Assembly: GCA_029267335.1 (NCBI GenBank) | Contig: JAJUJC010000006.1 | Span: forward strand, 62,001-126,000 | Length of the DNA: 64,000 nt | Direction: 5' to 3' | DNA from: Intestinibacillus massiliensis | GTDB taxonomy: Bacteria > Bacillota > Clostridia > Oscillospirales > Butyricicoccaceae | Part shown: one piece after another, positions 19,338 to 43,081 of the stretch | Numbering within the stretch: the first letter of the stretch is position 1 | Layout of the letters: every line of letters begins with the position of its first letter | The notes under the pieces: generated by a model | The model's input: the letters and a program-made list of their open reading frames with translations, nothing else | Told to the model about the DNA's origin: nothing | The model's database searches: none | Position numbers and translations under genes: made by a program

Positions 19338-19628
19338 TCAGAGCAGCATCGGCTGGCCTGCTTGTATCGGCACCGTTCTACCCATCGTTTCAATTTTATG
19401 CTCATAGGAATTTCCCAACCGGTAAAAGCGGATGGAATCCAGATTGGGGTCGATCGCCTTTTGCAGTCTTTCTTTGAGCACTGCGAGCTGTGCCGCATCG
19501 ACAAGCACTTCAAACACAGAGTTTTGCACGCGCATGCCATAGCGTTCGCATATTTTCGCAACATTTCTCAGACGTTTAGCGCCTGCCGCCTGCGTCACAT
19601 TGACATCATAGGTCAAGACGAGCAGCAT
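19338..19628 (-). CDS. cas2: CRISPR-associated endoribonuclease Cas2
   Basis: A 96-residue ferredoxin-fold protein that bridges two Cas1 dimers during spacer integration. The start MLLVLTYDVN carries the conserved first-strand Asp (Asp8); the rest (RLRNVAKICERYGMRVQNSVFEVLV) is typical. Its Shine-Dalgarno GGAGGTGA lies within the last codons of cas1, 4 bases separating stop and start. It ends directly at the leader. Confidence 0.97.
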   Translation of the reverse strand: MLLVLTYDVNVTQAAGAKRLRNVAKICERYGMRVQNSVFEVLVDAAQLAVLKERLQKAIDPNLDSIRFYRLGNSYEHKIETMGRTVPIQAGQPMLL

Positions 19629-19632
19629 CCTC

Positions 19633-21314: not shown

Positions 21315-22302
21315 GATGGAACCAGGTTTCGGATTCCGGCAGCGCGCCCCACGAAATCGTTCCGAACGCATCGCTCTGGAAGCCGATCTGCACACCGCTC
21401 GGCACGCGATCGAGCGCGACGCGCGCGTCATAATCCCGATAGCTGCGCGGGCAGTCTACCTCGGGCTTTTTGCTGACCGTGACCAACTCAAACAGCTTGT
21501 GGGCAGGCGCACAGCCGAGCTTTGCCTGCTTGATACGCTGCTGTTCGTCGGTATCCGTACCAACATGCTTGAAGAGAATGAGCGGCGACACAACCTCCAT
21601 CTGTCCCTTGCTTGCCGAACGGTCATGCTCGTACATATTGAGGATCGCCTCAAACAGAATCTTGAGATCCTCCTCATCAAAACCGGTCTCCGCGGCGAGA
21701 TTGGCGCTGATAAAGCCGCGCACCTCATACAGTCCGAACGGAATGAGCTGCTTACGTCCCATCGTGCGCAGCTTGTCCTCAGGAGTCTCCTGTTCGCTTT
21801 TCAGATACGCTTCTACCGTCCCTTCCTTGTTTGTCTCCGCTGCCGCCATGCGCGTGATCGCAATATCCATCGGCAGCACGGGATCCAGGCTTTTGCCGAA
21901 CGTGATCTGCACCGGACCGCGTACCTGTCCTGCGTTCGGACCGGTGGACATGACCGCACCAAAGGCGCGCACATCATAGAACATTTCGCATGCCTTTTTG
22001 CGCCCTGCATAGACCGCTTCCTTGGTCTTGGCGCAATCCTCCACGCCCGCGTTGCGCTTTGCCTGCGCAATATGACGGTTGATATTGGTCGACTGCTCGA
22101 TGATGAGATTCATGCCCGGCTCTTCGCCGTGCGCGAGCGTGACATAGTTGCGGATACGGCGCTTGGTCGCCACATCGGTGATCAGCCCCTGCATGGTCTG
22201 CGGGTCGACGCGCGGCGTATTTCCCATATCGGGGTCGCCGTTCGCGTTGCCGTTCGTGCATGCCACATAGTACATAAATTCATATCTGTTCTGAATCGCC
22301 AT
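21307..22302 (-). CDS. cas7: Type I-C Cascade backbone Cas7 (Csd2)
   Basis: RAMP-fold protein that polymerises along the crRNA spacer. The N-terminus AIQNRYEFMYYVACTNGNANGDPDMGNTPR is the conserved Csd2/Csh2 signature (NGNPNGDP). The 331-residue length is slightly above the usual 280-300. ATG 22302 has AAGGAG upstream and sits one base after the cas8c stop. Upstream in-frame sequence to 22434 overlaps cas8c and is not part of the protein. Confidence 0.95.
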   Translation of the reverse strand: MAIQNRYEFMYYVACTNGNANGDPDMGNTPRVDPQTMQGLITDVATKRRIRNYVTLAHGEEPGMNLIIEQSTNINRHIAQAKRNAGVEDCAKTKEAVYAGRKKACEMFYDVRAFGAVMSTGPNAGQVRGPVQITFGKSLDPVLPMDIAITRMAAAETNKEGTVEAYLKSEQETPEDKLRTMGRKQLIPFGLYEVRGFISANLAAETGFDEEDLKILFEAILNMYEHDRSASKGQMEVVSPLILFKHVGTDTDEQQRIKQAKLGCAPAHKLFELVTVSKKPEVDCPRSYRDYDARVALDRVPSGVQIGFQSDAFGTISWGALPESETWFHHG

Positions 22303-22303
22303 T

Positions 22304-22741
22304 TTACTGCTCCTTTTCCCCGTCGTCCTCGGTGTGTGTTTCGTCATTCCCCTGCTGTTTGTCCTTGTATTCCGCGTTTCGGCTGCGCTGCTCCGCTTGG
22401 ATCTGCGCCCACATCTGGCGGTAGCCCAATGCAAAGTAGGACTGCCCTTCCAGATCGAGCGTGACCGGAATGACCGTTCCCATCGCTACCGAAATCTGCG
22501 ACAGCATGTCCTGATACCAGTGCAACCAGCGCTGGTTTTCGATCTTCGCGAGATGATAATTGGATAATCTGGAAAGCTGCCCGAGCACGAGCGCGGGGGT
22601 CTGGCTCGCCGCGGCATAATAGCGCTGAATCACGCCGGCGTTTACGTCGGGCATCGCCTTTCTCTGGATCGCACCATAAACTGCCATGAGCGCGCCGCAA
22701 TGATAGGCGCTGCTCGGATGATTTTCCGAATAATACGGCAT
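22304..22741 (-). CDS. cas11: Internal small subunit Cas11c within cas8c
   Basis: In type I-C systems the small subunit is made from an internal start in cas8c. Here the codon for Met469 of Cas8c (ATG 22741-22739, MPYYSENHPSSAYHC) is preceded by a perfect AGGAGG (22755-22750) with 8-base spacing, which is stronger than needed by chance inside a coding region. The product would be 145 residues, mostly helical, matching the Cas8c C-terminal helical bundle. What is seen is the RBS and the frame; the role follows from the known biology of I-C Cascade. Confidence 0.8.
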   Translation of the reverse strand: MPYYSENHPSSAYHCGALMAVYGAIQRKAMPDVNAGVIQRYYAAASQTPALVLGQLSRLSNYHLAKIENQRWLHWYQDMLSQISVAMGTVIPVTLDLEGQSYFALGYRQMWAQIQAEQRSRNAEYKDKQQGNDETHTEDDGEKEQ

Positions 22742-24145
22742 CAAAATTTCCTCCTCTGTTCTGGGTTTCCGCCGTGTCAGCCAGACCTTGAGCCACTGGC
22801 ACGCCATGTCGTCGGGCACGGGCACCTCACTGCGTTCGTCGTCCTGACCGAGCATTTTGGAGCGAATATAGGCAAGTGCACGCGCCGCGACCGTATCCGG
22901 CAGCGGCGCACCGGTCATAATGGCAGTCAGCACCGCAGGCGTGACGCCGGAAAGCTCCTTATCCATGCGTTCCCAGATTTTTTGATCGCTTTTCTGATAT
23001 TTCATCAGGCGGATCAGCGCAGGGAACAGCTTAAACTGCTTCATGACACCTGTGCCGAACGAATTGACCAGTGTCAGCTCCTGCTGCCACCGCTCCACGT
23101 TGCTTTGCAGCTCCTCGTAAGACCCACGCAGATAGCGCCGGATCATCACTCTGCCGTTTACGCCGGAGAGCATCAGAATATAATAGGTATTCGTGAATTT
23201 CGGAACGTGCTCTCCGGTCGATACGCTGTGAACGAGCTTGTCCGCCTGCTGCAATGCGGACTGTTCTTCCATCTGCGTGCTGACGGCTGTGTCCTCGGGC
23301 TCGTCGTCCTCCTCCGGTTCCTCGATGGCGAATGCCGGCATGCCCATCAGCTCCACCGGATCGTCTTTCGGGGGGACGGGCTGATCGTACCAGTGCACGA
23401 ACTTCATGCCCGCCAAGGTCGGGGCGCGGGCGATCAGCGCATCGAGCGCCGCCTTCACCGAAGCGTACGCCTGCTCCGACACCGGCGCATTTGCCGATTT
23501 CTCCAGCCCATAGGAACAAAACGCCGATTTGTCGAAGCAAATGAGTGCGTCGCCGCTGCTGTGACCACCTACGGATCGCAATCCTGTTGTTTTCGGCACG
23601 GTCGCCATCGGCTCGGTCAGTTCCCCTGTGATGAGACAAGGTACGCGCGGCGCATCCGTATCCTTTGCCAAAAGCACGCCCCGGTAAGCGCTCCACCATT
23701 CCTTGGTGCGCGCGCTTTCGAGCAGCGACACATCGCCCACTTTGAACGACACGCGGTCGGAATCCTTGATCTTAGCGCGTGTAAGCTCCGCCCCGATGTC
23801 CGCCAGATTGTGTTCGTCCTGCATTGCAGCCGCGCAGAGCGCCATATGCGGCTCGACCGCGCCGCCCTCCCGCATCGCCTGATAGAAAAAAGCGCTTTTT
23901 ACATTGGGCTGCGCGGGCACTACGATCGACTTTTTCTCCACGATCACATTGCTCTTATCCTTGCTGTTCGCCAGACTGCCTATATCCGGACAGGGCACGG
24001 CGATTTGCGGGGTTGGAAGCTCCAACCCCACAAATTTACCGTCCTCAGAAAAGACCAGATAGGCTTTGATGGTTTTTTTGATATATCCGGGCGGCAGCGC
24101 AAGATTTTCGCGCTGCGCATAACGATAAAGTGCGTTTAACATCAT
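22304..24145 (-). CDS. cas8c: Type I-C large subunit Cas8c (Csd1)
   Basis: PAM-recognising large subunit of the I-C Cascade, 613 residues. It begins MMLNALYRYAQRENLALPPGY like other Csd1 proteins and has the conserved CLITGE...PKTTGLRSVGG and SGDALICFDKSAFCSYGLEKSANAPVS blocks in the N-terminal half. It starts by ATGA overlap with cas5. The last 145 codons carry their own ribosome site and are annotated separately as cas11. Confidence 0.95.
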   Translation of the reverse strand: MMLNALYRYAQRENLALPPGYIKKTIKAYLVFSEDGKFVGLELPTPQIAVPCPDIGSLANSKDKSNVIVEKKSIVVPAQPNVKSAFFYQAMREGGAVEPHMALCAAAMQDEHNLADIGAELTRAKIKDSDRVSFKVGDVSLLESARTKEWWSAYRGVLLAKDTDAPRVPCLITGELTEPMATVPKTTGLRSVGGHSSGDALICFDKSAFCSYGLEKSANAPVSEQAYASVKAALDALIARAPTLAGMKFVHWYDQPVPPKDDPVELMGMPAFAIEEPEEDDEPEDTAVSTQMEEQSALQQADKLVHSVSTGEHVPKFTNTYYILMLSGVNGRVMIRRYLRGSYEELQSNVERWQQELTLVNSFGTGVMKQFKLFPALIRLMKYQKSDQKIWERMDKELSGVTPAVLTAIMTGAPLPDTVAARALAYIRSKMLGQDDERSEVPVPDDMACQWLKVWLTRRKPRTEEEILMPYYSENHPSSAYHCGALMAVYGAIQRKAMPDVNAGVIQRYYAAASQTPALVLGQLSRLSNYHLAKIENQRWLHWYQDMLSQISVAMGTVIPVTLDLEGQSYFALGYRQMWAQIQAEQRSRNAEYKDKQQGNDETHTEDDGEKEQ

Positions 24146-24783
24146 TCATCCCCCTTAATGACCTCGGGGCTGTCGTAAGGCGGCACCTCGATCACGCCCT
24201 GTTTCATGACTGCATGATAGAGGGAAAGCCGCGTTTTGGTCTTTTTGCGCACGCTAAAGTCGTGCAAATCGAAAATGTCGTACACGCAAAGTCCGCCGTC
24301 CAGATCGACCGGGATCGGCGGACGCATCCCGTCGCTCTCTTCAAAATAAGCGACAAACTCGCGTGCACCCAGTGCGGGCTGCATAAAGCATTTTCCGGTG
24401 CGGATCCGCCGGAGCGCCTGCTCGTACAGCTGCTGTTTGCTCCCCGTAAAGGTGGGGCGCGGGCAAATGGACGCGGTAACACGGTACCGTACATCGCGCA
24501 GCGCAACGGTTTGACGCTGCGTGCGGTCCTCGTCTGCCACGATCGGCTTGTCGCCGCGCGTGGTGGATTTCAGCTCATTGCGTTTGAAGCTGATGTAAGA
24601 GATCGGGTTCAACACCTCGATCTTCTGAACCTGCCAATAGAATTCCACGGGCTTGCTGTACACGGCGGACAGCATCCCCCGCACCGCAGAGGGTGTGGGA
24701 AATGGCGCGGATACACGTTCGACCTTTGCGAATGGCGGGGAGAATACCGCAAAGTCTCCCCAAAATTCAACTGTGATGGACAA
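24142..24783 (-). CDS. cas5: Type I-C crRNA endonuclease Cas5c (Cas5d)
   Basis: In subtype I-C, Cas5 processes pre-crRNA in place of Cas6 and stays on the 5' handle. The 213 residues begin SITVEFWGDFAVFSPPFAKVERVSAPFPTPSAVRGML, the typical Cas5d start. The start codon is TTG 24783 behind GGAGGTGA (24795-24788). It overlaps cas8c by 4 bases and is the first gene after the promoter at 24979-25007. Confidence 0.95.
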   Translation of the reverse strand: MSITVEFWGDFAVFSPPFAKVERVSAPFPTPSAVRGMLSAVYSKPVEFYWQVQKIEVLNPISYISFKRNELKSTTRGDKPIVADEDRTQRQTVALRDVRYRVTASICPRPTFTGSKQQLYEQALRRIRTGKCFMQPALGAREFVAYFEESDGMRPPIPVDLDGGLCVYDIFDLHDFSVRKKTKTRLSLYHAVMKQGVIEVPPYDSPEVIKGDE

Positions 24784-24787
24784 TTTG

Positions 24788-24909
24788 TCACCTCCGATTG
24801 ATTTTGTGTGGTCATTCCTCGTGTGGTTGTCCTTGACATTTTAATTGTCAAGGACAACTGCACAGCCATGACAACCAATATATTTCGATTCACCTCCGAT
24901 TGATTCTGT
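24788..24909 (-). promoter_or_regulatory. Long structured 5' UTR of the cas5 operon
   Basis: A 20-base element that includes the cas5 Shine-Dalgarno occurs twice, at 24788-24807 and 24890-24909, with one mismatch. Between the copies is a perfect 13-bp inverted repeat (24826-24838 with 24846-24858, loop of 7). The layout suggests attenuation or translational control of the Cascade genes; no protein-coding role for the first copy is convincing. Confidence 0.5.
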
Positions 24910-24978
24910 AAGCACCTGCTACTCAGCATCCCGGAGTTTGAGGTTATATTAGTTGTTATATATCACCTCGTTGAAAGT

Positions 24979-25007
24979 AGTATAGCACTGGATGTATTCC
25001 CGTGCAA
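24979..25007 (-). promoter_or_regulatory. Strong promoter for cas5-cas8c-cas7-cas4-cas1-cas2
   Basis: Read leftwards: TTGCAC (25007-25002), 17 bases, TATACT (24984-24979) with extended TGC. It is just downstream of the cas3 stop, so the effector and adaptation genes can be transcribed apart from cas3. Confidence 0.75.
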
Positions 25008-25046
25008 GCCCATTTTAACCAAATTCTTCATTTTATCCTCTTTTTG

Positions 25047-27275
25047 TTAAATTCCAACAAAACCCATCTTCATGCTTTGTGGAAACTGAAGCCCCTCTTC
25101 CTCGGTGTATCGAAATTCCTCCTGCCTGCACAGCACATACCATCCGCTTTCGCCCGCGAGCTTGCCTTTTCTGCCCGCAAAGCACAGCGGCTCTGTATAG
25201 TCCGCCAGATCTTTTTGGAACGTGGTCACGGTGATCGCAGCAGCCTGTTTCATGAGCGCCGGTGTCAGTCCCTGTACGAGCGCCTGCTCGCGTACGCGCT
25301 CGTACAGCTCTCTTTGCGCCGCAAAGGGCACGATGACGCGCACGCCCTGATTGTCAATCAGTTTATATTCCGCTGCGGTCGCGGTATAGTTACGCTGCTC
25401 GATGGCATCGCTGAGCGCGCGCTTGTCCTCTGCGCTGCGGAAAAGCATTTGATAATACCGCTCAATGTCCTGCGGGTCGTGGATGTCGATCTCGCGCTCC
25501 TGAGACATTATCTTGACGATCAGCGCGGCATTTCCGTACCAGTTGTCAGGATACAGCCCGCCGTCCTCGTCCGGCACAAAGACCGTCACCCACCCCTGTT
25601 GCGGGTTTTTACCGTTGCGGTTGCAGCGTCCCGCCGCCTGAATGATGGCATCGAGCGGCGCAAGTGCGCGATACATGCTGTCAAAATCCAAATCGACGCC
25701 CGCTTCGATGCATTGCGTCGCGACCACCCGACACGGCAGCGAAGCCGCCTGCCGCGCATGGATGCGCGCGATCATCGCGCTGCGGTGCGCCGGACACAGG
25801 TCAGTCGTCAGGAAGAATACCGTATCCGCGGGACAGTGCTGCCGAAGCGCGCGGTATAGCTTAACGGCGTGCCTGCGCAGATTAACGATCGTGCAGGTGC
25901 TATCCTGCTGCGCCATCTCCTGCGCAATATCGGTAAGCGGCGTTTGACGCGCGATGTCCCATTTGACGGCGGTGCGCCGCATCGCGTGAAACATCGCTGC
26001 GTTGTTCGGCAAAATTTCCGTCGGCTGCCACTCCATTTTGGGCAGATAACGAAATGCAGGCTGCGTTGCCGAGGAAAAGACCATCGTGCACTGATACCGT
26101 GTGCACAGCGCCTTGACCGCATGCAGCGTCGCGGCGGTCAGCTCCGCCGGCAGACTTTGCGACTCGTCAAACAGGATGACGCTGTCCGCAAGGTGATGCA
26201 GCTTGCGGCAGTCGGTCGGACGATCCGCAAACAGAGATTCAAAAAAGCGCACCGATGTGGTGATGATACACGGCGCATTCCATCGTGCCGCATGCTCACG
26301 CGCGACGTCGTCCAAATTGCTCTGGCTGTGATCCTCCAGTACCTCAGGCAGGATCTGTCGATAGATCGCCGTGCTCTGCTCCGCAAGCGTGAGAAACGGC
26401 AGTACGATGATAATGCGTTTTTTACCTGTCTCAATGCAATGACGCAGTGCAAAATGCAGCAGCGCGAGCGTTTTTCCCGTACCTGTCGGAGCAGTCAGCG
26501 TGAACAGTCCGCTTTCCCGCTCCCCCATTTCCCCGCACTGTTCAAACAGTCGATCGCGCATGGCATTGAGCTGCCCATCGGCATCCGACTCCCAGCGCAG
26601 CTTATTGCGATATGAAAGCAGCTTCGCAAGCGCGCCCTTGGCATCGAGCGGAGGCAGTTCCTGCGCAGCGAGATACCCCGGATGTTCCCATTCCGCAGAC
26701 GCACTGTAGTCGGCATCCACCAGACAGGAAAACAGCATCCGTGTTGTGAGCATGCTCACAAGCTGCGCCGCCTCAGGATCGTCCGGTTCTTTGCGAAAGC
26801 TCGGAAATTGGAAGTGCGGAAAATCCGATAAAAATGCGCAGCTAGCAGTCGAAAATTCCTCGCCCGACAGCGCACTCTCCTTTCCCTTGTTGCACCGCAC
26901 TGCCGTACACATGCATTCTTTCAGATACGGTTTGAGCTGCGGCATGCCCATCAAACCCGCATGATGTCCGTTGATCGCCTCTATGACCGGAATATTGCGT
27001 GCTAACCCACTCGCTTGCTTTTCGAAGGTACGATAAGTGAGCGCTGCGCCGCAAATTGCATGGTCAATGCCCTGATGTGTTCCCCTGAGCACGCCCTGAA
27101 ACTTTTCACTGTACTTTCCGAAATCGTGTAGCAGTCCGCACAGTTTCGCTTGCTTGTACAGCCCGAGCGGCTCTCCATATGTTGCCGCCAAACTTGACAC
27201 CTGCTCCAAGTGCTCCCGCACAGACTGTTTCCGTCCGTCCGCATTCGCCGACTTCGCCCAATAGTCCGTTCCCAT
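25047..27275 (-). CDS. cas3: CRISPR-associated helicase-nuclease Cas3
   Basis: Degrades target DNA recruited by Cascade. The 742 residues show an N-terminal HD nuclease (His50-Asp51 in GLLHDFGKYSEKF, plus NGHHAG near 103-107) and an SF2 helicase with Walker A TAPTGTGKT at 261-269, a DExH-like FDESQSLP, SSATQPAF (motif III) and QAAGRCNRNG (motif VI). All key residues are intact. Start ATG 27275 follows AGGAG. The upstream flank is a transposase scar, so its promoter may have been altered by insertion; none is obvious. Confidence 0.97.
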   Translation of the reverse strand: MGTDYWAKSANADGRKQSVREHLEQVSSLAATYGEPLGLYKQAKLCGLLHDFGKYSEKFQGVLRGTHQGIDHAICGAALTYRTFEKQASGLARNIPVIEAINGHHAGLMGMPQLKPYLKECMCTAVRCNKGKESALSGEEFSTASCAFLSDFPHFQFPSFRKEPDDPEAAQLVSMLTTRMLFSCLVDADYSASAEWEHPGYLAAQELPPLDAKGALAKLLSYRNKLRWESDADGQLNAMRDRLFEQCGEMGERESGLFTLTAPTGTGKTLALLHFALRHCIETGKKRIIIVLPFLTLAEQSTAIYRQILPEVLEDHSQSNLDDVAREHAARWNAPCIITTSVRFFESLFADRPTDCRKLHHLADSVILFDESQSLPAELTAATLHAVKALCTRYQCTMVFSSATQPAFRYLPKMEWQPTEILPNNAAMFHAMRRTAVKWDIARQTPLTDIAQEMAQQDSTCTIVNLRRHAVKLYRALRQHCPADTVFFLTTDLCPAHRSAMIARIHARQAASLPCRVVATQCIEAGVDLDFDSMYRALAPLDAIIQAAGRCNRNGKNPQQGWVTVFVPDEDGGLYPDNWYGNAALIVKIMSQEREIDIHDPQDIERYYQMLFRSAEDKRALSDAIEQRNYTATAAEYKLIDNQGVRVIVPFAAQRELYERVREQALVQGLTPALMKQAAAITVTTFQKDLADYTEPLCFAGRKGKLAGESGWYVLCRQEEFRYTEEEGLQFPQSMKMGFVGI

Positions 27276-28712: not shown

Positions 28713-29200
28713 TCATGATAAAGTCTTTTCCATTGTTAAGCCAGATTTAAAGTGAACCGTTGCAGTTTTTTCATCCTCAATCACAATTCTGTCAATTACC
28801 TTATTCAGTAATTGCTTTGTTCTATCGACTTCTTCAAATTTTCTTTTGTTTTCATTTTTTACCCTAAGGGCTGCCTTTGTTTTGATTAGGTACACTGTCG
28901 CCTCAGCTGGATCAGCTTTTATAATTGTATTAAATAGCTCAATCAATAAATTTATCATTCCTGATTCCGGTATTGTTGCTGACTGTTTACAATGAATAGC
29001 TCCAGTTTTGTTCAGCCCAATTTTTCTTGTGTAGTAGGCTATCTGTGCTTGATAACTGTTTTCCTACTGTGCAAATCTTGTACTTACCCGGCAATATGCA
29101 GCTACATTTAGTATCTTGTTCTCGATCCTAATATGCTTGTCATACTTTGGGTCCGGCGAAGCACTGTAATATCTTTTAATTTTTGCACTTTCATCCTCTC
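28713..29200 (-). pseudogene. Serine recombinase pseudogene with internal deletion
   Basis: The N-terminal catalytic start is readable (IENKILNVAAYCRVSTRFAQ, stop, ENSYQAQIAYYT), close to the recombinase at 47254-48687, but a frameshift near the start and an in-frame TAG break it. The frame then jumps within a few codons to the C-terminal coiled coil and tail (KRKFEEVDRTKQLLNKVIDR, VHFKSGLTMEK). The entire DNA-binding middle, over 300 residues in relatives, is missing. This is a dead copy of an integrative-element recombinase. Confidence 0.75.
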
Positions 29201-29332: not shown

Positions 29333-29773
29333 TCAGTTCATCTCATGCAGTATACTAAGAATAAAAATCATATGTCTTTTTTCCCAAAAAACCAATTTTG
29401 AAAAAGTCTTTTCAAAATTCTCTTCTATATTGGAATATGAAGCCAGCTTTTCATATAATTCAGCTGAATTTTCTTCAATCTGAAGTGCGAATTTAAAGAA
29501 CTCTTTTTGAGAAGGATTTTTAGATATACCTTCTTTTAAATGTACTTTTTGAGATTCCAAACATTTAACAATTTCTTCATTCAAAACATAATCCAAGAGT
29601 TCTTTTTTTTCTAACAAATCAAGAAGAAACTCTCTATGCTTTAACTCCTCACTAGAAAGTCTCTTCATCACTGGCTTAAATCTTTCGTCTGCTTCAGAGA
29701 CCTCTCTATCATATAGTATAGATGCATTCTCTTCCATTTTAATTAATTCATTAATACAATCCTTCAAAATCAT
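29333..29773 (-). CDS. Ferritin-like / rubrerythrin-type diiron protein
   Basis: A 146-residue four-helix protein with two E-x6-Y...E-x-x-H half-sites: Glu14/15 and Tyr21 with Glu43-x-x-His46, then Glu101/102 and Tyr108 with Glu132-x-x-His135. This spacing is that of a rubrerythrin-like diiron bundle; the rubredoxin domain is absent. Such proteins detoxify peroxide or store iron. It ends the putative exopolysaccharide operon (3 bases after the GT2 stop), which is an unusual place for it. Low GC content matches its neighbours, not the core genome. Confidence 0.7.
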   Translation of the reverse strand: MILKDCINELIKMEENASILYDREVSEADERFKPVMKRLSSEELKHREFLLDLLEKKELLDYVLNEEIVKCLESQKVHLKEGISKNPSQKEFFKFALQIEENSAELYEKLASYSNIEENFEKTFSKLVFWEKRHMIFILSILHEMN

Positions 29774-29776
29774 TAG

Positions 29777-31165
29777 TTAATCCTCCTTTTCATAAAAGGC
29801 ATTCCTCTTTATGGTTCCCCATTTTTTGCTTCCTTTTTTATAATTGATAAATGAGATCACTCGCCAATACACAGTTAGCTGCCTATAAAGGAACTGTTCA
29901 AAAAACGAGTAAATAATAAGTCTTGTTACTTCCCTAATTCCACTATATCGTTTATAAGACATCGCTTCAAATAAGATAGCCGAAAGAGAAAACGTTAAGC
30001 CATACATAAATGCCAACAAAAAAACAAAAACAAAAAATTTAGAAAGCGAAGATGTAATAATAAGAATAATTAACATAATATAACCGATCATCTCAATAAT
30101 CGGTCCCAACATTTCAACCAAAACGAAATATGGTACAGACAACATCCCTACGGTTCCATAGCGAGGATTAAAAATCATTTTTTTATGTAACATGAGCGAG
30201 TCAGTTAGCCCTCTATGCCATCTTATTCTCTGGCTTTTCAGTCCCTTTATTGTATTTGGTGCCTGAGTCCAACAAACAGCATCTGATGCAAAGTCTATCT
30301 TATAAGGGATTTTATTTTTTCGATAATATTCATGCAATCTCAATGTGAGTTCCATATCTTCACCTATCGTTTTGCTGTACCCGCCTACCTTAATAACGGA
30401 AGATTTTTTAAATACACCAAAAGCTCCTGATATGATCAGTAGGGCATTTATTTTCTCCCATCCAATACGGCTAGTTAAAAATGCTCTGAAGTACTCGATA
30501 ATCTGAAATATGACAAATTTCTCTTTCGGCAACTTTGCTTCAATTAATTTACCATTCTTAATTATACACCCATTTGCAATTCTTACAATTCCACCTACCG
30601 CAATGGTATCTTCATTCTTAAGAAACGGTTTAACAATTCTAATTAAAGCACTTTTTTCAAGAATGCAATCTGCATCTATTCCACAAAAAAGTGGATACCG
30701 TGACAGATTAATGCCTGCATTTAAAGCATCCGCCTTTCCACCGTTAAGCTTATCTACAATTACGAGATTCGGAATATTAAAAGATCCGTATACGCCTTTT
30801 ATTTCAGCAGACTGAACCTGCGCATTTATCTCCACATCAATTTTTCTGAGTTGAAAATAATCAATAATTTTTTGCAGCGTATTATCCTTAGAACCATCAT
30901 TAACTACAATTATTTCAAATTCCGGATAATTAAGCTGTAATAACGAAAGAATGTTATCAATAATCGTTTCTTCCTCATTGTATGCTGGAACAATTACTGA
31001 AATAGGCTTTGTATAACTGCCAATAATATTTACCTCGTTTTTAATAACATTTACAAATTCCATCAATTTGCCTGAAGAGATTAAAATCAGAATTATGTAA
31101 AATACACTGATCAACAGAAAATATGAGAATATAATTTTGCTATAAATTGTGATTATGTTCAGCAT
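29777..31165 (-). CDS. Processive glycosyltransferase family 2, membrane-bound
   Basis: A 462-residue polysaccharide synthase of the BcsA/PgaC type. It has two N-terminal TM stretches (about 10-31) and a GT-A domain with PAYNE (60-64), VNDGS (88-92), DAD (164-166), GED (268-270) and the processivity motif Q312-R-I-R-W316. Three or four TM helices follow after residue 335. It should polymerise a UDP-sugar and extrude the chain. No PilZ domain is attached, so any c-di-GMP control would be indirect. It follows a HEAT-repeat protein by 3 bases in an operon that also holds a secreted glycoside hydrolase, so exopolysaccharide export is the likely role. Sugar unknown. Confidence 0.85.
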   Translation of the reverse strand: MLNIITIYSKIIFSYFLLISVFYIILILISSGKLMEFVNVIKNEVNIIGSYTKPISVIVPAYNEEETIIDNILSLLQLNYPEFEIIVVNDGSKDNTLQKIIDYFQLRKIDVEINAQVQSAEIKGVYGSFNIPNLVIVDKLNGGKADALNAGINLSRYPLFCGIDADCILEKSALIRIVKPFLKNEDTIAVGGIVRIANGCIIKNGKLIEAKLPKEKFVIFQIIEYFRAFLTSRIGWEKINALLIISGAFGVFKKSSVIKVGGYSKTIGEDMELTLRLHEYYRKNKIPYKIDFASDAVCWTQAPNTIKGLKSQRIRWHRGLTDSLMLHKKMIFNPRYGTVGMLSVPYFVLVEMLGPIIEMIGYIMLIILIITSSLSKFFVFVFLLAFMYGLTFSLSAILFEAMSYKRYSGIREVTRLIIYSFFEQFLYRQLTVYWRVISFINYKKGSKKWGTIKRNAFYEKED

Positions 31166-31168
31166 TAT

Positions 31169-32254
31169 TCATACCTCGACAGTCTTTACTGTGTTGTAAA
31201 CTTCTTGATTAGCATTTAAGAAATAGTACGCAAGATCTGCTATATTCTTGTCTTCATTAAGGGACAATTCAACCAATGTGAATAACCCTTCTGAACCCAT
31301 GGATACAATGGTTTTGATCGCATTATAGCGAACCCACCATTCCTTATCCCTAGTCATTTTCTGTAAGAGATCTTTTGTGAGACTATAGCTAAAATGGCTC
31401 AGCCCTTTTGCAATCGATACTCGAACTTCCCAACTTTCTTCCATTTCATACAATTTGGATAAAAAGTCAATATATTTATCATTTCTGCTGCTACAAATAG
31501 CTAAAACAGCCGCTACTCGTACCTCTTTGTCATCTTTAAAATATTCTAACAAACTATCGGAATAATCTTGTGTTTTGAGTTGTTCTTTATCTATAAGGTT
31601 TCTCAGGAAAATCACTTTCCCTTCAGAGGAGGTTTGCTTTTTCAAAAGTTTAAAAAATTCATCAAAAGAAACTTTAAACTGACTAATTACTTCAATTTTC
31701 CTATCTATAGCAATATTTGTATTAACAAGCGCCTGAATCGCTTCTTCTTTTTTTCTGTTAGGAAGTTCAATCATCGATAATCCGATAAAACATAGGTATG
31801 ATAAATCAAAGTCGTCCGATAGCGCCGTTTTCATTAGAAAGGAATACGCTCTTCGAGATCTCATAAATGCAAGTTTTCTAAGATATTTAATATCCATCTT
31901 TTGTTGAAGTTTTTGTATCATTGCATTATCTAATTCTAGCTCAATAAATTTCTCACTAATATCTACTTCATTCTTTTCTGAATACTCAATCATGATGTCA
32001 ATAGCTACTTGCTTTCGAAAATTGTCTTTTATAGCTTTCTTTACTTCCTCAATTCTATCCCCTGTTTGGATATACTGAATAATTTGATCAGAGATTGCCA
32101 CTTTTTGAGCTTTATATTTTTTGTCCATTCTTTTACTTTTAAATAGAATAAAGTAAATTAAAAGTATCATAACAATGTCAATAATAATCAGCAGATAAAT
32201 ATTCATCATTATAAATGACTTAAGATTACTTGAAAACATTTTTCCCTCACTCAA
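31169..32254 (-). CDS. Membrane-anchored HEAT-repeat protein
   Basis: A 361-residue protein with one N-terminal TM helix (about 12-38), a basic stop-transfer segment (KSKRMDKKYKAQK) and then a cytoplasmic all-helical region. The second half shows HEAT-like repeats (DKEVRVAAVLAICSSRN, ESWEVRVSIAKGLSHFSY, EWWVRYNAIKTIVSMG). HEAT scaffolds bring proteins together at the membrane; next to a GT2 synthase it may act as its co-factor or regulatory subunit. Its start overlaps the upstream gene by 4 bases. Confidence 0.7.
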   Translation of the reverse strand: MSEGKMFSSNLKSFIMMNIYLLIIIDIVMILLIYFILFKSKRMDKKYKAQKVAISDQIIQYIQTGDRIEEVKKAIKDNFRKQVAIDIMIEYSEKNEVDISEKFIELELDNAMIQKLQQKMDIKYLRKLAFMRSRRAYSFLMKTALSDDFDLSYLCFIGLSMIELPNRKKEEAIQALVNTNIAIDRKIEVISQFKVSFDEFFKLLKKQTSSEGKVIFLRNLIDKEQLKTQDYSDSLLEYFKDDKEVRVAAVLAICSSRNDKYIDFLSKLYEMEESWEVRVSIAKGLSHFSYSLTKDLLQKMTRDKEWWVRYNAIKTIVSMGSEGLFTLVELSLNEDKNIADLAYYFLNANQEVYNTVKTVEV

Positions 32255-33366
32255 TTTATTTGTTCAATAATTGTTTTAATCAAAGGATAATATACATTCC
32301 AGTAAAAATAATTTTGATTTGTGTCTTCATCAAATGTAGTGATTTTATTTAAAAATCTTATACCATATGCTTGATAAATCTTCGGTGTCATGTTGTTGTC
32401 TGCAAAGTCTCCACAGAAATAGTAGCTTGTATATCCACTCTTTTTCAAAAGAACTGCTGGGAATTCGCTAGGCAGATTAAATTCTTCCATCACTTTTTTG
32501 CCTTTTTCCGTGAGGTCTATCTTGTAATTTGCCAATATTTCTGTATCCTTTTCGGGTTTACATACTTCAAACCAGTAATAATATTTTACATTATTCTTCA
32601 CAGTAAACTGTTTCACGGCTTTTGGAGTAAATTTTATCGTATTTAAGCCCTTCCCAAGCTCCGTCCCTTCTCTCAAAACAACTATTTTATCTCCCAATCC
32701 TACAAATACAATACCCGGTCCTTCAAATCCCCATTTAACTCCATATTGCATAGCGTAATTTGTTTTTATCCATTTAGGTATTTCTTCATTATTATCTGAA
32801 AGATCGGAAAAATACCGACCAATCCAGCCGCTCCATGTCAGACCAAAGATATCCTCCATCTGGTTTCGTTCCTGATCTTCCGTTGGAGATGCTAAAGTGT
32901 TAAATTCTGCTATAATGACATTCTCGTTTAGCAGCTTTTTTATAACTTCAACTTCGCTCTCACTTGCTCCTCCATAAATCAATTCTGACCGGTTGCCATA
33001 AATATTTTTCTTATAGAATTCTTCGTTATATACACCATAAGTGTCCGTAATATAAATCATGTCAGCCGTTTTCAAATTGTACGGAAGCTCTTTCGTTTTA
33101 TACTTCTGATCTTCCATCGGAATAAAACCATAATAATCTTTGCTATATGCAAAGGCACTATTTTGATTTTTAATCTTGAGATTATTGAGTATCCACATGA
33201 ATCCCTTGTGTTCCCGGTAAGTCATATCGGGAACTGTCTTATCCATAATGATTACATCCAAATTTTTTGCTGGTTGGATCTGCCATAGAATAAATGGAAG
33301 TGCAACTATTGTCACAATTAAAATGATAAATATACTTATAATCCTTTTTTTCGTTTTCTTTTCCAT
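32251..33366 (-). CDS. Membrane-anchored extracytoplasmic protein of unknown function
   Basis: A 371-residue protein with an N-terminal signal-anchor (about 8-30) and a mixed alpha/beta outer domain. The middle (YIYDTYG-like ITDTYGVYNEEF, IIAEFNTLASPTEDQERN, FGLTWSGWIGRYFSDL) resembles proteins found beside GT2 synthases in Firmicutes, but I cannot name a family. It lacks cysteines in pairs and obvious catalytic motifs. Gene order (hydrolase, this, HEAT, GT2) suggests a secretion or anchoring factor for the polymer. Confidence 0.55.
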   Translation of the reverse strand: MEKKTKKRIISIFIILIVTIVALPFILWQIQPAKNLDVIIMDKTVPDMTYREHKGFMWILNNLKIKNQNSAFAYSKDYYGFIPMEDQKYKTKELPYNLKTADMIYITDTYGVYNEEFYKKNIYGNRSELIYGGASESEVEVIKKLLNENVIIAEFNTLASPTEDQERNQMEDIFGLTWSGWIGRYFSDLSDNNEEIPKWIKTNYAMQYGVKWGFEGPGIVFVGLGDKIVVLREGTELGKGLNTIKFTPKAVKQFTVKNNVKYYYWFEVCKPEKDTEILANYKIDLTEKGKKVMEEFNLPSEFPAVLLKKSGYTSYYFCGDFADNNMTPKIYQAYGIRFLNKITTFDEDTNQNYFYWNVYYPLIKTIIEQIN

Positions 33367-33376
33367 TCAAGTATCC

Positions 33377-35506
33377 TCAACTGTATTTTGCAAAGGCCTC
33401 TTTCATAATATAATAGGAGGGCTTCAGCCGTTCATGATAAACGGGCATGTCCCATGGGTTCCAAGTGTATAAATTCATTTTCAACTTGTCCGTAGTCGCA
33501 TTTTTATCAGTTAGTCCTACACCAACGTATATTCCCTGTATTTTTGTTGCTTTAATACCATCTATATGTAAGTCATCCACAACAGATAATGTGGATGGGT
33601 CCATGATATTAAGAAGCTGCCAAGGAATTCTAATTTCCAAAGTATCCTCTTTAGCACAAAAATCAGATAGAGAATCATATTCACCGCTACTAGGATTCGC
33701 ATTTCCATAGTGCAATGCCCCGGTTTCATATTTTTGAAACGGAATCGTTATTTTGTCTTGCGGTAAGACAAGTGATTTATTTGTACATAGATACATTGGT
33801 ACAAATTCTCCGCTATTTTTCTTGTTGAAATTTGTTGCTGCAGGTATCATACCCAGCTTCTCTCCATATAGATATTGAAAAGTATCATAATATGGGTCAA
33901 CGAGAATTCTAGAATTACTACGCCCGTCAATTAAAATAACAAAATCAGCATTCCGTTCAAACAGCATTTTCCAATAAGATACATTACCCTGGCCCTGTAT
34001 TGTATCTATTGGTATCAATAACGGTCCATCTGTATCAAGACGATAGTTCTTAATCATAAAATAGACATATGCCTCATCAGACTTTATAAAAAGTTCTTGT
34101 TTTCTATTCGTCAACAAGGGAGCTTCATTCGACCAGTCTTGCGTAGATCCATCTACATAACAACTGCTTTTACTTTGACCTGAGTCAAAAGCAAGGAGTC
34201 CGAAGTGTTGTTCATTGGTCTGTTGATTATTCCAGTATGCCCGCCGATCTGCAATATCAAAGTCCATCGTATTCCATGTTCTTTTGAACCACTCATCTTG
34301 GAAACTGAAAATAAGCCCGCCAGCATAACCTTCTACATAAATATCCTCAAGCATAGCTGCATCCATTTGTCCTTGTTGCTTTTCGGAAATATTCCCTTGA
34401 TTATAACCAAGATATAGGCTATCATGAGCTTTTCCACGTGCTGATGGAACACCAAATTCACCTACCAGTACCGGCATCGTATGATTTTTTTTCAAATCCC
34501 GTAGGTAAGCACGATAGGTATTTGTTTTACCCTCCGAATCCTTAAAGTTAATATAATCTTTTTGGTAATTCATCGAGTCTGGGTAATATGGATAAATATG
34601 ATAGGATGCAAAAATACCTGGTTTAAAATCTTCTTTCGTCTTGATATGCTCCAAATTAACCGAAACGAGGTCCTCATTCGAAAGAGGCTCATTGGGGTGA
34701 TTCAACATATCTGTAGTAACCCAGTTCGTAAAACTAATCGTTGATTGTGTATTATAGTTTTTTGTTTCATACCGAATACAAGAATCACCCACCTCACACA
34801 GAAAGTTTTCAAACGGTGAAGCATTTTTCGTATACAAATAAGTTCCATCATATTGTGTTGCGTTTTGATTGCTTTTATTTGTATTAATTACAAAATCAGG
34901 GTCCCACTCAATTCCTAATATATAGCCAAGAACATACGGCGAAACATCACTGTTATAAATACCATAGGCCATTCCTGGTTTTTGCGTAACTACTTTATTG
35001 CCATGTAATACATCAATAACAGTATCTATATCCGATTTGAAACTGTCTTTAATCAATGGATTGTAGGCATTTTTATATTTTGCTATGTACTCTTCGTTGA
35101 TCCAGACTCCTTGAAGCAAATACAAAGGATTGTCGGCTCTTGAATTAAACTCATAGAGGGCGTCATAAAAATCCGGCTTTAAAATCGTATAGACTCTTAT
35201 GGTATTGGCATTCATGTCACTTATATATTGAAACCACCTCAAATAATCCTCCTTTGTAATACCAAATTCTCCCGGAAAATATCCTGGTTTAGTGGCTCCA
35301 AGATTAACACCTTTTATAAAAACCTTATTCCATTCATCATTTTTATAAATATAAAAACTATTATTCTCTGCTTTTGACATATATGCAATGGAATCTTTAT
35401 CTCGGTATATACTTGCTTTGTGCTCAATTCCACCAATATCTATTTTATATGATACTACTCCTATGATAAAAATACACAGAACACTAATTGAAATTATTTT
35501 TTTCAT
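33377..35506 (-). CDS. Secreted clan GH-A-like glycoside hydrolase
   Basis: A 709-residue exported protein: signal peptide or anchor at 1-20, then a TIM-barrel region (VFIKGVNLGATKPGYFPGEF, MNANTIRVYTI) like the GH2/GH5 barrel, with candidate acid/base Glu200 (GYILGIEWDPD) and nucleophile Glu350 (MPVLVGEFGVPSARG). From about 450 on there is a beta-rich domain of the kind that binds carbohydrate (SSCYVDGSTQDWSNEAPL, then VYFMIKNYRLDTDGPLLI). Hydrolases encoded with polysaccharide synthases usually trim the chain or release it. It is the first gene of the cluster. The assignment to clan GH-A is firm in outline; the exact family is not. Confidence 0.7.
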   Translation of the reverse strand: MKKIISISVLCIFIIGVVSYKIDIGGIEHKASIYRDKDSIAYMSKAENNSFYIYKNDEWNKVFIKGVNLGATKPGYFPGEFGITKEDYLRWFQYISDMNANTIRVYTILKPDFYDALYEFNSRADNPLYLLQGVWINEEYIAKYKNAYNPLIKDSFKSDIDTVIDVLHGNKVVTQKPGMAYGIYNSDVSPYVLGYILGIEWDPDFVINTNKSNQNATQYDGTYLYTKNASPFENFLCEVGDSCIRYETKNYNTQSTISFTNWVTTDMLNHPNEPLSNEDLVSVNLEHIKTKEDFKPGIFASYHIYPYYPDSMNYQKDYINFKDSEGKTNTYRAYLRDLKKNHTMPVLVGEFGVPSARGKAHDSLYLGYNQGNISEKQQGQMDAAMLEDIYVEGYAGGLIFSFQDEWFKRTWNTMDFDIADRRAYWNNQQTNEQHFGLLAFDSGQSKSSCYVDGSTQDWSNEAPLLTNRKQELFIKSDEAYVYFMIKNYRLDTDGPLLIPIDTIQGQGNVSYWKMLFERNADFVILIDGRSNSRILVDPYYDTFQYLYGEKLGMIPAATNFNKKNSGEFVPMYLCTNKSLVLPQDKITIPFQKYETGALHYGNANPSSGEYDSLSDFCAKEDTLEIRIPWQLLNIMDPSTLSVVDDLHIDGIKATKIQGIYVGVGLTDKNATTDKLKMNLYTWNPWDMPVYHERLKPSYYIMKEAFAKYS

Positions 35507-40031: not shown

Positions 40032-41015
40032 TCAGCTTAATATTTCAATAATATATTTAGTTATTGTATCGTATTCACTGTGAATATTACCATTGCTGAG
40101 TGTAATTGGTATTCCATAATTTGAAGGAGTACTTCTATTATCAAGATGTCTTATATAAATATTGAATATATGATTTAACTTATCATAAACATATTTTGTT
40201 CCAGTAATCATTGATCTTGGTTTCACTGAAGTAATTGCTCTATCTAAAGCTGTCAAAACATCCATATTTCCTCCTGAACTACGATTTTTATATAATGTCT
40301 CAAGCACACCAATAAATTGGGGCCTTTCACCAAAATAATCCTTTAGTATGACTCCTCCTATATTATTATCATAAGCATATTTTAAATATGTACTTTCGAT
40401 CTCTGTTATATAATCTGCAACACCATCTGTACTTATCTCATCTCCTACAGTCGGTATTAAGTAATAATCGCATGCTAAAAATACACTCTGAATAATTAGA
40501 TTACTTGTTGGCGGACAATCAATCATTATAAAATCATAGTTTTTATCGCTGTTTTGTATATCAAAAAGAAGTCTAGATATAACCATTATATTTTTTGTAT
40601 CTTTAGAAAATCTATCGGCAATATCATTTATTCTGCTGTTTTTCATGTCTAGAACAGTGGGAATGAAATCTAAGAAACCATTGTTTTTCGAATGTTTTGG
40701 AATGTTTTTTACAGAATTTTTGATTTTTTCAAAATTCGTATATATATTTCCTTCTAGAATATTTAATCGAGTAGTCTGAGAAATATATTCTCCATACAAT
40801 TCCAAAGCATAATTTAGAGTGTTGTTAACAGCTAGTGCTGATAATTTTATATTAGTACAATCTTCGCAAATTTTGCTTAACGAACACTGTGGATCTAAAT
40901 CAATTAGTAAAACCTTTTTGTGATATTTGGTAGCAAGTTGCGCAGCAATTTCAAAAACTGTCGTTGTTTTTCCAACCCCGCCTTTATAATTCCCAAAGAA
41001 TATTTTTTTAGCCAC
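40032..41015 (-). CDS. ParA-family ATPase
   Basis: A 327-residue deviant Walker ATPase: Walker A K11-GGVGKTT, A' LLIDLDPQCSLS, and B FIMIDCPPTSNLI. ParA/MinD proteins position DNA or protein cargo. No parS-like repeats or ParB gene are seen, and the gene is embedded in the methyltransferase/kinase operon (11 bases after the receiver gene), so it more likely serves that system than plasmid partition. The C-terminal 60 residues (YIRHLDNRSTPSNYGIPITL) are extra to the ParA core. Confidence 0.8.
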   Translation of the reverse strand: MAKKIFFGNYKGGVGKTTTVFEIAAQLATKYHKKVLLIDLDPQCSLSKICEDCTNIKLSALAVNNTLNYALELYGEYISQTTRLNILEGNIYTNFEKIKNSVKNIPKHSKNNGFLDFIPTVLDMKNSRINDIADRFSKDTKNIMVISRLLFDIQNSDKNYDFIMIDCPPTSNLIIQSVFLACDYYLIPTVGDEISTDGVADYITEIESTYLKYAYDNNIGGVILKDYFGERPQFIGVLETLYKNRSSGGNMDVLTALDRAITSVKPRSMITGTKYVYDKLNHIFNIYIRHLDNRSTPSNYGIPITLSNGNIHSEYDTITKYIIEILS

Positions 41016-41026
41016 ATCAATACCCC

Positions 41027-43081
41027 CTATTTCAATTTAACTATTTCTATCTTCACTTCTGGTTTACTTTTTTTAACTATCTTTAATGCTTGTCCATTTT
41101 CTAAATCTATACGAGTTTCCTCAGACTCTAAAAGTATATGATCTTTTTTATTCGTAGGTGCTGCCTCAATACTAAATTTCGAGAGCACCCTTAGTATTTC
41201 AGCTCTCGATACTTCCCATGGTAATTTTGCAGGTTTGGAATTTGCATTCCTATCTCCTGAAAGAATAACCTGAATGCTAATTTCTCCAGAAATTATAGAA
41301 TCTGCTATAGGGATATCAAGAGTCTGGCACCGAGCTAAATTGATAGTATTATACGGCTGCCTTCCCCTATACTCAAGATATAGCTTGTATAAATAAAGTA
41401 TATAGGTTTCTGTTAATCTGCAAATTCTTCGCAACGGATAAGATAATTTATTTGCAGATTCTTCCTCATACTTATGTACAGATATAAGTCTTGGGGCATA
41501 AGTATTATCTAAGAATATATCAAAAGCTTCTCCTGCTTGAGATTTTAATGTTTTTATCGAATTATAGTACTTCTGCAACTCACCATAATAGTCAATAAGA
41601 TATGGCATCATAATATTAGCTCTATCTTCTGGCAATACCGCGTCGAGATCAATACAACATTGTCCATCTGGAGTATATGTACACAAATTAATCAACTCAT
41701 TCTCCAAGTAAACTCTTTTTGTATAATCTATCTTTAAGCAACTTGATGTATCTTCAGGACTTTTTCTAAAGTTGTTAATCATCATATAACTAAGATTATT
41801 CTTCAATTTGAACGTTTCTGTCTGTGATACGATTTGTGCCGGTATCAATTCAGAAATAGCATTTCTTCTTTTTCTGGTTTCGCTCATCATAATATCACAG
41901 TCTTGTCCAACCAAAATGTAGATTTTCCCATCATTATCTATGAAAACATCACCTGCTGCCGGAGGCTGATAAAACTTATTTACATTATAATCAAATGCTT
42001 CAAAAGTATTAAGCATATTTAAATCATCAGAAATTTCATAATCTCCAATTTCAACCTGATTGATTAGATTAGTTAATCTCACGATATAAAGAATTACATT
42101 ACTTTTAGATAATTCATAATCACACATGGTACTAATCCAAGTATTAATGATTTGGTAATTTGCAACTCCTTCATATACAGCCATTTGCGACAGGTAGAAT
42201 GCAATATTCCTGTTGATGGTCGCTTTCGAAAAAGTATCAAAAAGCCCTTTTATCACTTCATCTTTTAACTTACTTATTGCATAATTATATGTACTTCTGA
42301 GTAGTGCTGATTGTAAATTACTTTGAGCTACGGACTTATTAACATATTCAAGGAAAACATGTTCATCTATATTTTCAGTTTTTTCATGCGAAGTGACTAT
42401 GGCTCCAATAATACTATTTCGCTTATCAGTATTAAAACTTCTTATTTCGTCAATAATATTTTTAGCCCTTTTTTCACCGGAAAGCTCATTATCGATTATG
42501 CAGCAGAGGCAAGTAAATTCATTGGTTGTATTTTTATAGAACTTTTGTAAATCGTCCTTAAATGACCTGCTGTTTTCAGCATCAAAACTTGCATATATCC
42601 TAAACGGTTTCCATCTATTTTCAGATAGCAGATAATCATCGAATATTCTTTGATAACAAGGTGGAATGTTAATGCAAAGCCCATACTTTAATAATAGCTT
42701 CGCCAAATAGTCTACATTAGGCAGTTCAATAGCATTATATAAACCACTCAGGCTATCATACTGTGCTGATTCCCGTACTCTTATAATATCCATAGCGGAT
42801 TCGATATCATCCCTTATGACCTCTTCATTCCAACTTTCTATAAGGGGAAATAATTTATCCATACATTCGGAATAGCTTTTTAAAGATAATGCAAAATCGT
42901 TATGATCTTTTTCCAGTTCTGAAATAAAGTTCTTTCTGCTCTCTACATCCATCCTCGAAATAGAATAAAGAAATTTAGATTTATCTATTTCCGCATCTGC
43001 AAGAGAAAAATCATCTTCAAGAAAAACTATCATGGCACAGTCAACATTGTTAAAAAATATTTTATAATCAATTTGCTCCAT
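41027..43081 (-). CDS. Receiver-domain protein partnered with the GHKL kinase-like ATPase
   Basis: A 684-residue protein with no overall family I recognise. Residues about 158-260 have a receiver fold: FRIYASFDAENSRSFKDDLQ, then CLCCIIDNELSG with the phospho-acceptor Asp197, GAIVTSHE with Thr230/Ser231, and YVNKS with Lys249, i.e. the D-T/S-K triad of response regulators. The rest is helical; residues 375-400 (FYQPPAAGDVFIDNDGKIYI) and LVGQDCDIMMSE suggest a beta domain. Its start overlaps the stop of the kinase-like gene by one base, so the two are made together. It looks like the regulated arm of a two-component-style signal. Confidence 0.65.
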   Translation of the reverse strand: MEQIDYKIFFNNVDCAMIVFLEDDFSLADAEIDKSKFLYSISRMDVESRKNFISELEKDHNDFALSLKSYSECMDKLFPLIESWNEEVIRDDIESAMDIIRVRESAQYDSLSGLYNAIELPNVDYLAKLLLKYGLCINIPPCYQRIFDDYLLSENRWKPFRIYASFDAENSRSFKDDLQKFYKNTTNEFTCLCCIIDNELSGEKRAKNIIDEIRSFNTDKRNSIIGAIVTSHEKTENIDEHVFLEYVNKSVAQSNLQSALLRSTYNYAISKLKDEVIKGLFDTFSKATINRNIAFYLSQMAVYEGVANYQIINTWISTMCDYELSKSNVILYIVRLTNLINQVEIGDYEISDDLNMLNTFEAFDYNVNKFYQPPAAGDVFIDNDGKIYILVGQDCDIMMSETRKRRNAISELIPAQIVSQTETFKLKNNLSYMMINNFRKSPEDTSSCLKIDYTKRVYLENELINLCTYTPDGQCCIDLDAVLPEDRANIMMPYLIDYYGELQKYYNSIKTLKSQAGEAFDIFLDNTYAPRLISVHKYEEESANKLSYPLRRICRLTETYILYLYKLYLEYRGRQPYNTINLARCQTLDIPIADSIISGEISIQVILSGDRNANSKPAKLPWEVSRAEILRVLSKFSIEAAPTNKKDHILLESEETRIDLENGQALKIVKKSKPEVKIEIVKLK

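Follow-up and report, generated by a model that had tools for sequence, protein, structure and literature searches.

A survey of synthase-dependent exopolysaccharide operons in bacteria began from five known systems, and the accessible main text of that paper contains no match to HEAT or CotH (PMC7112194). Among the Gram-positive systems described, the clostridial cellulose synthase operon ccsZABHI encodes CcsA, a PilZ-containing enzyme homologous to the Gram-negative synthase (PMC7710045), and Gram-positive Pel operons combine a pelDEADAFG core with accessory genes for CotH, a polyphosphate polymerase and DUF4956 (PMC7112168). NELoc-2 of necrotic-enteritis strains of C. perfringens is listed as VTC, "tubulin" (226/222 aa), resolvase, VTC, "tubulin", CotH (497 aa), a hypothetical protein (685 aa), HEAT (377 aa) and a GT2 "chitin synthase" (466 aa); the last two genes were listed in 2010, and the portions of that report available to us give them no polysaccharide function (PMC2879425). 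Two NELoc-2 genes have been found to be lower in vivo (PMC4983038). In the accessible literature on HEAT proteins with glycosyltransferases or exopolysaccharides, a body that took in few subscription journals, only the NELoc-2 and Pel papers bear on this gene set, and the available parts of PMC11426533, PMC10374906, PMC8250860 and PMC12419801 do not describe a HEAT-GT2 system. Here we describe a cluster of five genes, encoding a glycoside hydrolase-like protein (GH), an anchored protein (ANC), a HEAT-repeat protein (HEAT), a GT2 glycosyltransferase (GT2) and a ferritin-like protein (FER), in a 64,000 nucleotide stretch of the Intestinibacillus massiliensis genome (hereafter the window; positions 62,001 to 126,000 of contig JAJUJC010000006.1). 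It is probable that the cluster specifies a cyclic di-GMP (c-di-GMP)-linked, synthase-dependent exopolysaccharide system of a family, HEAT-GT2, distinct from Bcs, Pga, Pel and Alg. The cluster in the window looks like one branch of a widespread family that makes and exports a surface polysaccharide.

Organisation of the cluster

The five open reading frames (ORFs) are intact, all point leftward and follow the order GH-ANC-HEAT-GT2-FER with intergenic gaps of 10, -4, 3 and 3 bases (Table 1), confirming by coordinates the tight spacing and overlap that had been reported in a first-pass annotation of the sequence. The ATG of the GH gene is preceded by AAAGGAG, which resembles a Shine-Dalgarno sequence, and a promoter scan of the region gave matches not above those of shuffled sequences. 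The HEAT ORF opens with TTG, and the start of its nearest relative aligns with the sixth codon (Met) of the window ORF; the true start is probably at about 32239, in which case the overlap between ANC and HEAT turns into a small gap. Locus L002, from a Clostridium metagenome-assembled genome, has counterparts of all five genes with order and strand unchanged (identities of 64.5, 59, 51.5, 77 and 37%), and on this ground the cluster is taken to be more than a chance arrangement.

Table 1. Features of the gene cluster and of nearby recombinase sequences in the window.
Feature	Position	Strand	Evidence
GH: clan GH-A-fold protein, anchored or secreted via N terminus	33377-35506	-	709 aa ORF
ANC: predicted membrane-anchored extracellular protein, no known family	32251-33366	-	371 aa ORF
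HEAT: one N-terminal transmembrane helix and predicted cytosolic HEAT-repeat domain	31169-32254	-	361 aa ORF; Pfam, topology, GT2 pairing
GT2: processive glycosyltransferase with membrane helices	29777-31165	-	462 aa ORF; Pfam, NCBIfam, motifs, hydrophobic segments
FER: rubrerythrin/ferritin-like protein, accessory	29333-29773	-	146 aa ORF; PF02915 at cut-off, ExxH motifs
Large serine recombinase, intact	47254-48687	-	Pfam Resolvase, Recombinase, Zn_ribbon_recom; same AT-rich island
Probable serine recombinase remnant adjoining cluster	28713-29144	-	29019-29144 compared with 5′ part of intact gene

Linkage of HEAT and GT2 across genomes

We coined the name HEAT-GT2 in this analysis for loci in which a HEAT gene adjoins or is fused to a GT2 gene; in the window the two adjoin. 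A search of genome contigs with GH returned nine loci. Four of the five genes are present in L003, a receiver protein takes the place of ANC in L004-L006, and ANC is fused to a degenerate GH domain in L009 and L010. The GH-HEAT-GT2 set is also carried on plasmids of Deinococcus radiophilus and Planococcus maritimus; a tblastn search of plasmids with HEAT alone gave a single record. GH was detected in 27 of 391 genomes sampled from the class and in 23 of 398 from the phylum, the window genome being counted in both. A search with a GT2 profile, independent of GH, found the synthase at 33 places, spread over 31 of the 398 genomes from the phylum; 32 of these places were examined (a second copy in G809 was left out). 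HEAT adjoins or is fused to GT2 at 30 of these 32 places, the two exceptions being L171, with a broken GT2 gene and a 15.6-bit HEAT-like piece, and L172, whose GT2 scores 278 bits. Only 13 of the 32 places have GH in the locus, and eight have ANC, so neither is strictly required.

Every GT2 of at least 350 bits in the fetched loci and the window has a HEAT partner (64 of 64; 62 by the family hidden Markov model and two by Pfam), in a count that includes loci picked for having GH, whereas the 32-place count is independent of GH. The HEAT profile used for pairing was built from the HEAT proteins of the GH-selected loci and one from L133, and all 62 ORFs that it matches adjoin a GT2. Sequences below 350 bits were dropped from this count, namely L171, L172, the PgaC-like genes of L102 and L103, and a second fragment in L088. 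GH and GT2 also co-occur at the level of whole genomes, with 19 of the 23 GH genomes carrying GT2 against about 1.8 expected from 31 GT2 genomes among 398. Fusions join the same partners: HEAT and GT2 form single chains in L092, L136 and L169, HEAT, GT2 and ANC one chain in L095, and GH, a transmembrane segment and HEAT one chain in L100; ANC-GH fusions are common. Together, these comparisons support the view that GT2, HEAT, GH and ANC belong to a single, conserved functional unit. The first-pass annotation had made its case depend on finding the same gene set elsewhere, with the HEAT and anchored genes linked to GT2 genes. The set was found, complete and in order in L002 and with the same content and order in other genera, and for HEAT the linkage is nearly universal; for the anchored gene it is seen in L002, in the L095 fusion and at eight of the 32 GT2 places.

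Properties of the encoded proteins

GT2 matches Pfam Glycos_transf_2 (3e-25) and, like synthases in general, is a membrane protein with D, DxD, ED and QxxRW motifs, here D90, D164xD166, E269-D270 and Q312xxR315W316. D90, Q312, R315 and W316 are present in 63 of 63 aligned GT2 rows and the other four motif residues in 62 of 63. Its best NCBIfam match is the PgaC/IcaA model TIGR03937, at 142.7 bits against a cut-off of 422.3, and no deacetylase was seen in the window cluster with Pfam. Two other identities were rejected: cellulose synthase BcsA/CcsA (CelA, TIGR03030; 46.6 against 699.1 bits, and no PilZ match) and the XrtG-associated glycosyltransferase (TIGR03111; 105.7 bits against a cut-off of 363.95).

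HEAT matches Pfam HEAT_2 (9.9e-17). An N-terminal membrane segment is found by hydropathy in all 58 HEAT proteins compared, with the more positive flank on its C side in 53, and because this flank follows the membrane segment the repeats are predicted to be cytosolic. The single GH-TM-HEAT chain of L100 predicts the same sidedness, with GH outside and HEAT inside. Conservation is highest at R309, an arginine within a repeat that 57 of the 58 proteins share, and neither Pfam nor NCBIfam gave a PilZ-type match.

GH has no Pfam family match. An AlphaFold2 model built from 12 sequences (mean predicted local distance difference test score, pLDDT, 77.6) shows a TIM barrel followed by a beta-rich C-terminal half, and its best structural match is GH157 (Foldseek E 2e-9; VIA Z 26.7, 299 aligned residues, 16% identity), followed by GH2 and then GH5. 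The catalytic glutamates of clan GH-A standardly lie at the ends of barrel strands 4 and 7. The window protein combines such a beta/alpha barrel with a glutamate at each of these ends in the model, E200 and E350, both invariant in the 12-row alignment; E200 is the candidate acid/base (end of beta4) and E350 the candidate nucleophile (end of beta7). The guess of a GH-A-like hydrolase made from the sequence is thus borne out at the level of fold, and the modelled domain with both glutamates could represent the linked extracellular hydrolase or modifying enzyme that synthase systems typically include. Of 71 homologous GH domains, 70 gave readable rows; 56 of these retain E200 and 64 retain E350. 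Loci that lack the glutamates include CotH-type L043 and L108, where both are gone, and those with the ANC-fused GH domains, L009, L010, L078 and L080; the fold is thus retained even in relatives where catalysis has probably been lost. Polymer degradation was rejected as a general role for GH, several relatives being without the glutamates. All 51 GH proteins compared have an N-terminal hydrophobic segment whose flanking charge is mostly opposite to that of HEAT, which places GH outside by hydropathy.

ANC was described at the outset as an anchored protein of no known family, and so it remains. The window protein has no Pfam or NCBIfam match, a 17-sequence ANC profile found nothing in the PDB (best E 0.66) and no shared Pfam family, and structure prediction from four sequences gave no usable model (pLDDT 39.7). 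An N-terminal hydrophobic segment is present in 20 of 21 ANC proteins, mostly with a charge sign opposite to that of HEAT, again pointing outside by hydropathy. Elsewhere ANC is fused to the N terminus of the GH domain or to the C terminus of HEAT-GT2.

FER reaches Pfam PF02915 (Rubrerythrin) exactly at the cut-off (22.8 of 22.8 bits) and has ExxH motifs at 43 and 131, so that by sequence it is rubrerythrin/ferritin-like. It occurs at six loci only (the window, L002, L003, L093, L162 and L163), which group together in a single GT2 clade (support 1.0); the ExxH pairs are intact in five and absent from L003. The ferritin-like gene, initially counted as a member of the system, accordingly falls outside the core and marks one GT2 clade. 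A hemerythrin gene follows GT2 in L133, and chains of the ODP-GGDEF-REC type, whose ODP-type domain we take to be diiron, precede the HEAT-GT2 fusion in L092 and L136. FER and these neighbours offer a hint of oxygen or iron input.

Signalling context

Neighbouring genes of the relatives encode receiver proteins, REC-GGDEF, GGDEF, HD-GYP and membrane EAL proteins. In many loci the gene immediately before HEAT encodes a receiver or GGDEF protein, and in L162 and L163, of the same GT2 clade as the window, it is a GGDEF gene. When 17 genomes with CotH-type operons were searched for EAL, 14 had any such gene and 10 of the 14 had one in the cluster, where it comes after the operon, against 0.16 genomes expected from random placement of EAL genes in a 10-kb window; four of these genomes (G077, G210, G228 and G343) have no other EAL gene. 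Scans with Rfam identified c-di-GMP-I riboswitches at L041 (Paenibacillus), L044, L081, L082, L084 and L091, and in the last five the riboswitch lies 33-60 bases before the first ORF, VTC, of an operon that holds CotH, GH, HEAT and GT2; the genomes of these five loci have no other c-di-GMP-I riboswitch. These locus-level scans covered the window and 69 loci, many of them with flanks of only about 1.5 kb, and a negative result there carries little weight. At the genome level, one to three c-di-GMP-I riboswitches were found in 16 of 18 genomes searched (the 17 CotH-type genomes and that of the window), and in six of the 16 (G077, G088, G120, G210, G216 and G343) the single riboswitch stands directly before the operon, compared with a random expectation of 0.02 for a 2-kb window. 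Because of the presence and position of these riboswitches, the evidence is strong that c-di-GMP controls the CotH-type operons; such control does not carry over automatically to the window cluster. The window genome has 16 GGDEF matches.

A PelD-like c-di-GMP receptor was considered but is not proposed, as the GGDEF-like domains before HEAT-GT2 in L092, L095, L130 and L136 have no GGDEF motif and a clear I-site was not seen in them. Two further features of the neighbourhoods were noted. DivIVA-type domains, alone or fused to receivers, lie beside the synthase genes in L090, L095 and L097 and could mean polar placement. In L105, L106 and L107 a gene of the UDP-glucose/GDP-mannose dehydrogenase family (Pfam, L107 only) is found downstream of GT2 and a receiver gene, a possible hint of a uronic-acid donor in that branch.

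A proposed exopolysaccharide system and its alternatives

That the family is an exopolysaccharide synthase with a near-obligate HEAT partner is well supported by the genomic comparisons. In the mechanism that we propose, GT2 would polymerise a nucleotide sugar and extrude a homopolymer or simple repeat, while HEAT would clamp the cytosolic face of GT2 as a regulatory subunit in the place of PilZ or PelD, with input from receiver domains or c-di-GMP enzymes. ANC may guide the emerging chain, and GH may trim or release it, or merely bind it where it lacks the catalytic residues. Expression of related operons would be set by c-di-GMP through a dedicated riboswitch, as the presence and place of the aptamer suggest, and in the window FER may provide a connection to iron or oxygen.

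Several observations weigh against this proposal. No polymer, activity or phenotype is on record for the HEAT-GT2 family, the outlying GT2 of L172 is without a HEAT neighbour, GH and ANC are present at only the fractions of GT2 places given above, and the catalytic glutamates of GH are missing in some relatives. In the window itself Rfam finds no c-di-GMP riboswitch (0 matches), its genome has no c-di-GMP-I riboswitch, the cluster contains no signalling gene, and canonical c-di-GMP-binding domains were not found in its proteins with Pfam or NCBIfam.

It is plausible that HEAT plays the role of PilZ or GGDEF subunits, as was first suggested from the sequence, and such a role fits the near-universal pairing, the predicted cytosolic side, the fusions to GT2 and the receiver and GGDEF neighbours; between a regulatory subunit and a plain scaffold the balance is about even. 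Taken as a full account, the idea that HEAT is solely a structural scaffold or assembly factor that senses nothing, with regulation exerted through expression by riboswitches and response regulators, has a little less than an even chance. HEAT repeats are generic protein-binding modules, the best conserved position, R309, lies inside a repeat, nothing of PilZ type was matched, and riboswitches do precede some operons; on the other hand, a receiver or GGDEF gene stands right before HEAT in many loci as if a signal passes to it, an argument from neighbourhood and not from binding. A bolder version of the regulatory reading is tentative: the membrane HEAT protein might be an unrecognised class of synthase regulator on the cytosolic face of GT2, gating the synthase on input from phosphorylated receivers or c-di-GMP and replacing PilZ and PelD, in a family present in about 1 in 13 sampled phylum genomes (31 of 398) whose polysaccharide is none of cellulose, poly-N-acetylglucosamine, Pel or alginate.

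We regard it as unlikely that the genes serve envelope glycosylation instead, with GT2 making a glycan attached to lipid or wall (a glycolipid or one of teichoic type) that HEAT, GH and ANC mature, and no free polysaccharide exported. The Gram-positive hosts, the lack of a recorded polymer and the predicted membrane anchoring of GH, ANC and HEAT would all suit such a role, but GT2 has the motifs of processive synthases and its best match, below cut-off, is the PgaC/IcaA model, the operons sit with c-di-GMP riboswitches and enzymes typical of exopolysaccharides, and wall-glycan genes were not recognised among the recurrent neighbour families.

The exopolysaccharide reading would have several consequences. 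A synthase family found in 31 of 398 sampled phylum genomes has no polysaccharide role in the accessible portion of the literature covered; if the reading is true, Gram-positive bacteria have a further synthase-dependent matrix polymer and a new way of coupling a synthase to signalling, NELoc-2, a locus tied to poultry necrotic enteritis, gains a likely function, and the CotH-VTC-DUF4956 operons are explained as parts of a polysaccharide machine. In several genomes the sole c-di-GMP-I riboswitch is at this operon, which makes the prediction directly testable.

Genomic island and neighbouring genes

The cluster lies in an AT-rich island of 33-36% G+C, with flanks of 51-61%; read in 2-kb steps, the stretch from 28 to 48 kb of the window has 28-37% G+C, compared with 51-62% to the left of 28 kb and to the right of 54 kb. 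Next to the cluster, positions 29019-29144 align over 127 columns, at 73% identity, with the 5′ part of the gene for the intact recombinase in the same island, and a recombinase ORF lies immediately upstream of the GH gene in L003. Among 60 genomes searched for ANC, only that of the window was positive, the other 59 being relatives without it. Because of the AT-rich island, the nearby recombinase sequences, the absence of ANC from the 59 relatives, the recombinase of L003 and the resolvase of NELoc-2, we infer that the cluster reached this genome by horizontal transfer on a mobile element. It is scarcely credible that a GT2 gene and unrelated neighbours were simply gathered on such an element, as a foreign AT-rich island near recombinase sequences and the ANC-negative relatives might allow, given that other genera share the gene set and its order, that plasmids of Deinococcus and Planococcus carry GH-HEAT-GT2, that HEAT lies beside GT2 at 30 of 32 places and that gene fusions occur; for the HEAT-GT2 pair chance assembly is already refuted by these comparisons.

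Other features of the window were noted in passing. An 81 aa ORF (28713-28958) has no Pfam match, and its likeness to the C-terminal tail of a recombinase was judged by eye only. At 17037-27275 there is a Type I-C CRISPR-Cas region with genes for Cas8c and Cas3 and a repeat array over 17.0-18.2 kb and beyond. A cassette at 40032-46852 encodes what looks by eye like a ParA-like ATPase, a protein of 684 aa that Pfam does not match, one of 878 aa in which HATPase is matched twice, and a C5 DNA methyltransferase; it has a defence-like look, and PADLOC clearly names the methyltransferase only. The product of 48680-50050 is an SLH-domain protein whose C-terminal end looks by eye like a serine-recombinase tail, and it may mark a fusion, or a break, where the island ends.

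Comparison with known systems

The first-pass annotation proposed that the cluster fits none of the bcs, pga, pel or alginate layouts and might be new. The former is borne out, and the curated cut-offs for CelA and PgaC/IcaA are both missed; the system is less novel than supposed, given the published NELoc-2 gene list, in which similar genes stand in the same order. PgaC/IcaA of the pga/ica systems is the best NCBIfam match of the window GT2, but the score is well below cut-off and the window cluster has no visible deacetylase. The GH protein shares with GH157 and other clan GH-A hydrolases the TIM barrel and the glutamates ending strands 4 and 7, but has 16% identity over 299 residues to its best match and belongs to no Pfam family. 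The ccsZABHI operon likewise unites a Gram-positive GT2 synthase, an anchored extracellular partner and a hydrolase (GH5) in one operon; CcsA contains PilZ, whereas the window GT2 has no PilZ match, has a HEAT partner and falls far short of the CelA cut-off. NELoc-2, matched here by its published gene list only, has the gene order and sizes of the CotH-type operons, with DUF4956 at the position of the "tubulin" genes. It differs from the window in having CotH and VTC and in listing neither ANC nor FER; conversely, CotH, VTC and DUF4956 genes of the NELoc-2 type are absent upstream of GH-HEAT-GT2 in the window. The Gram-positive Pel operons have the core pelDEADAFG instead of GH-HEAT-GT2, but share the CotH-VTC-DUF4956 module that also precedes many HEAT-GT2 operons, which suggests that this module is an accessory common to unrelated synthases.

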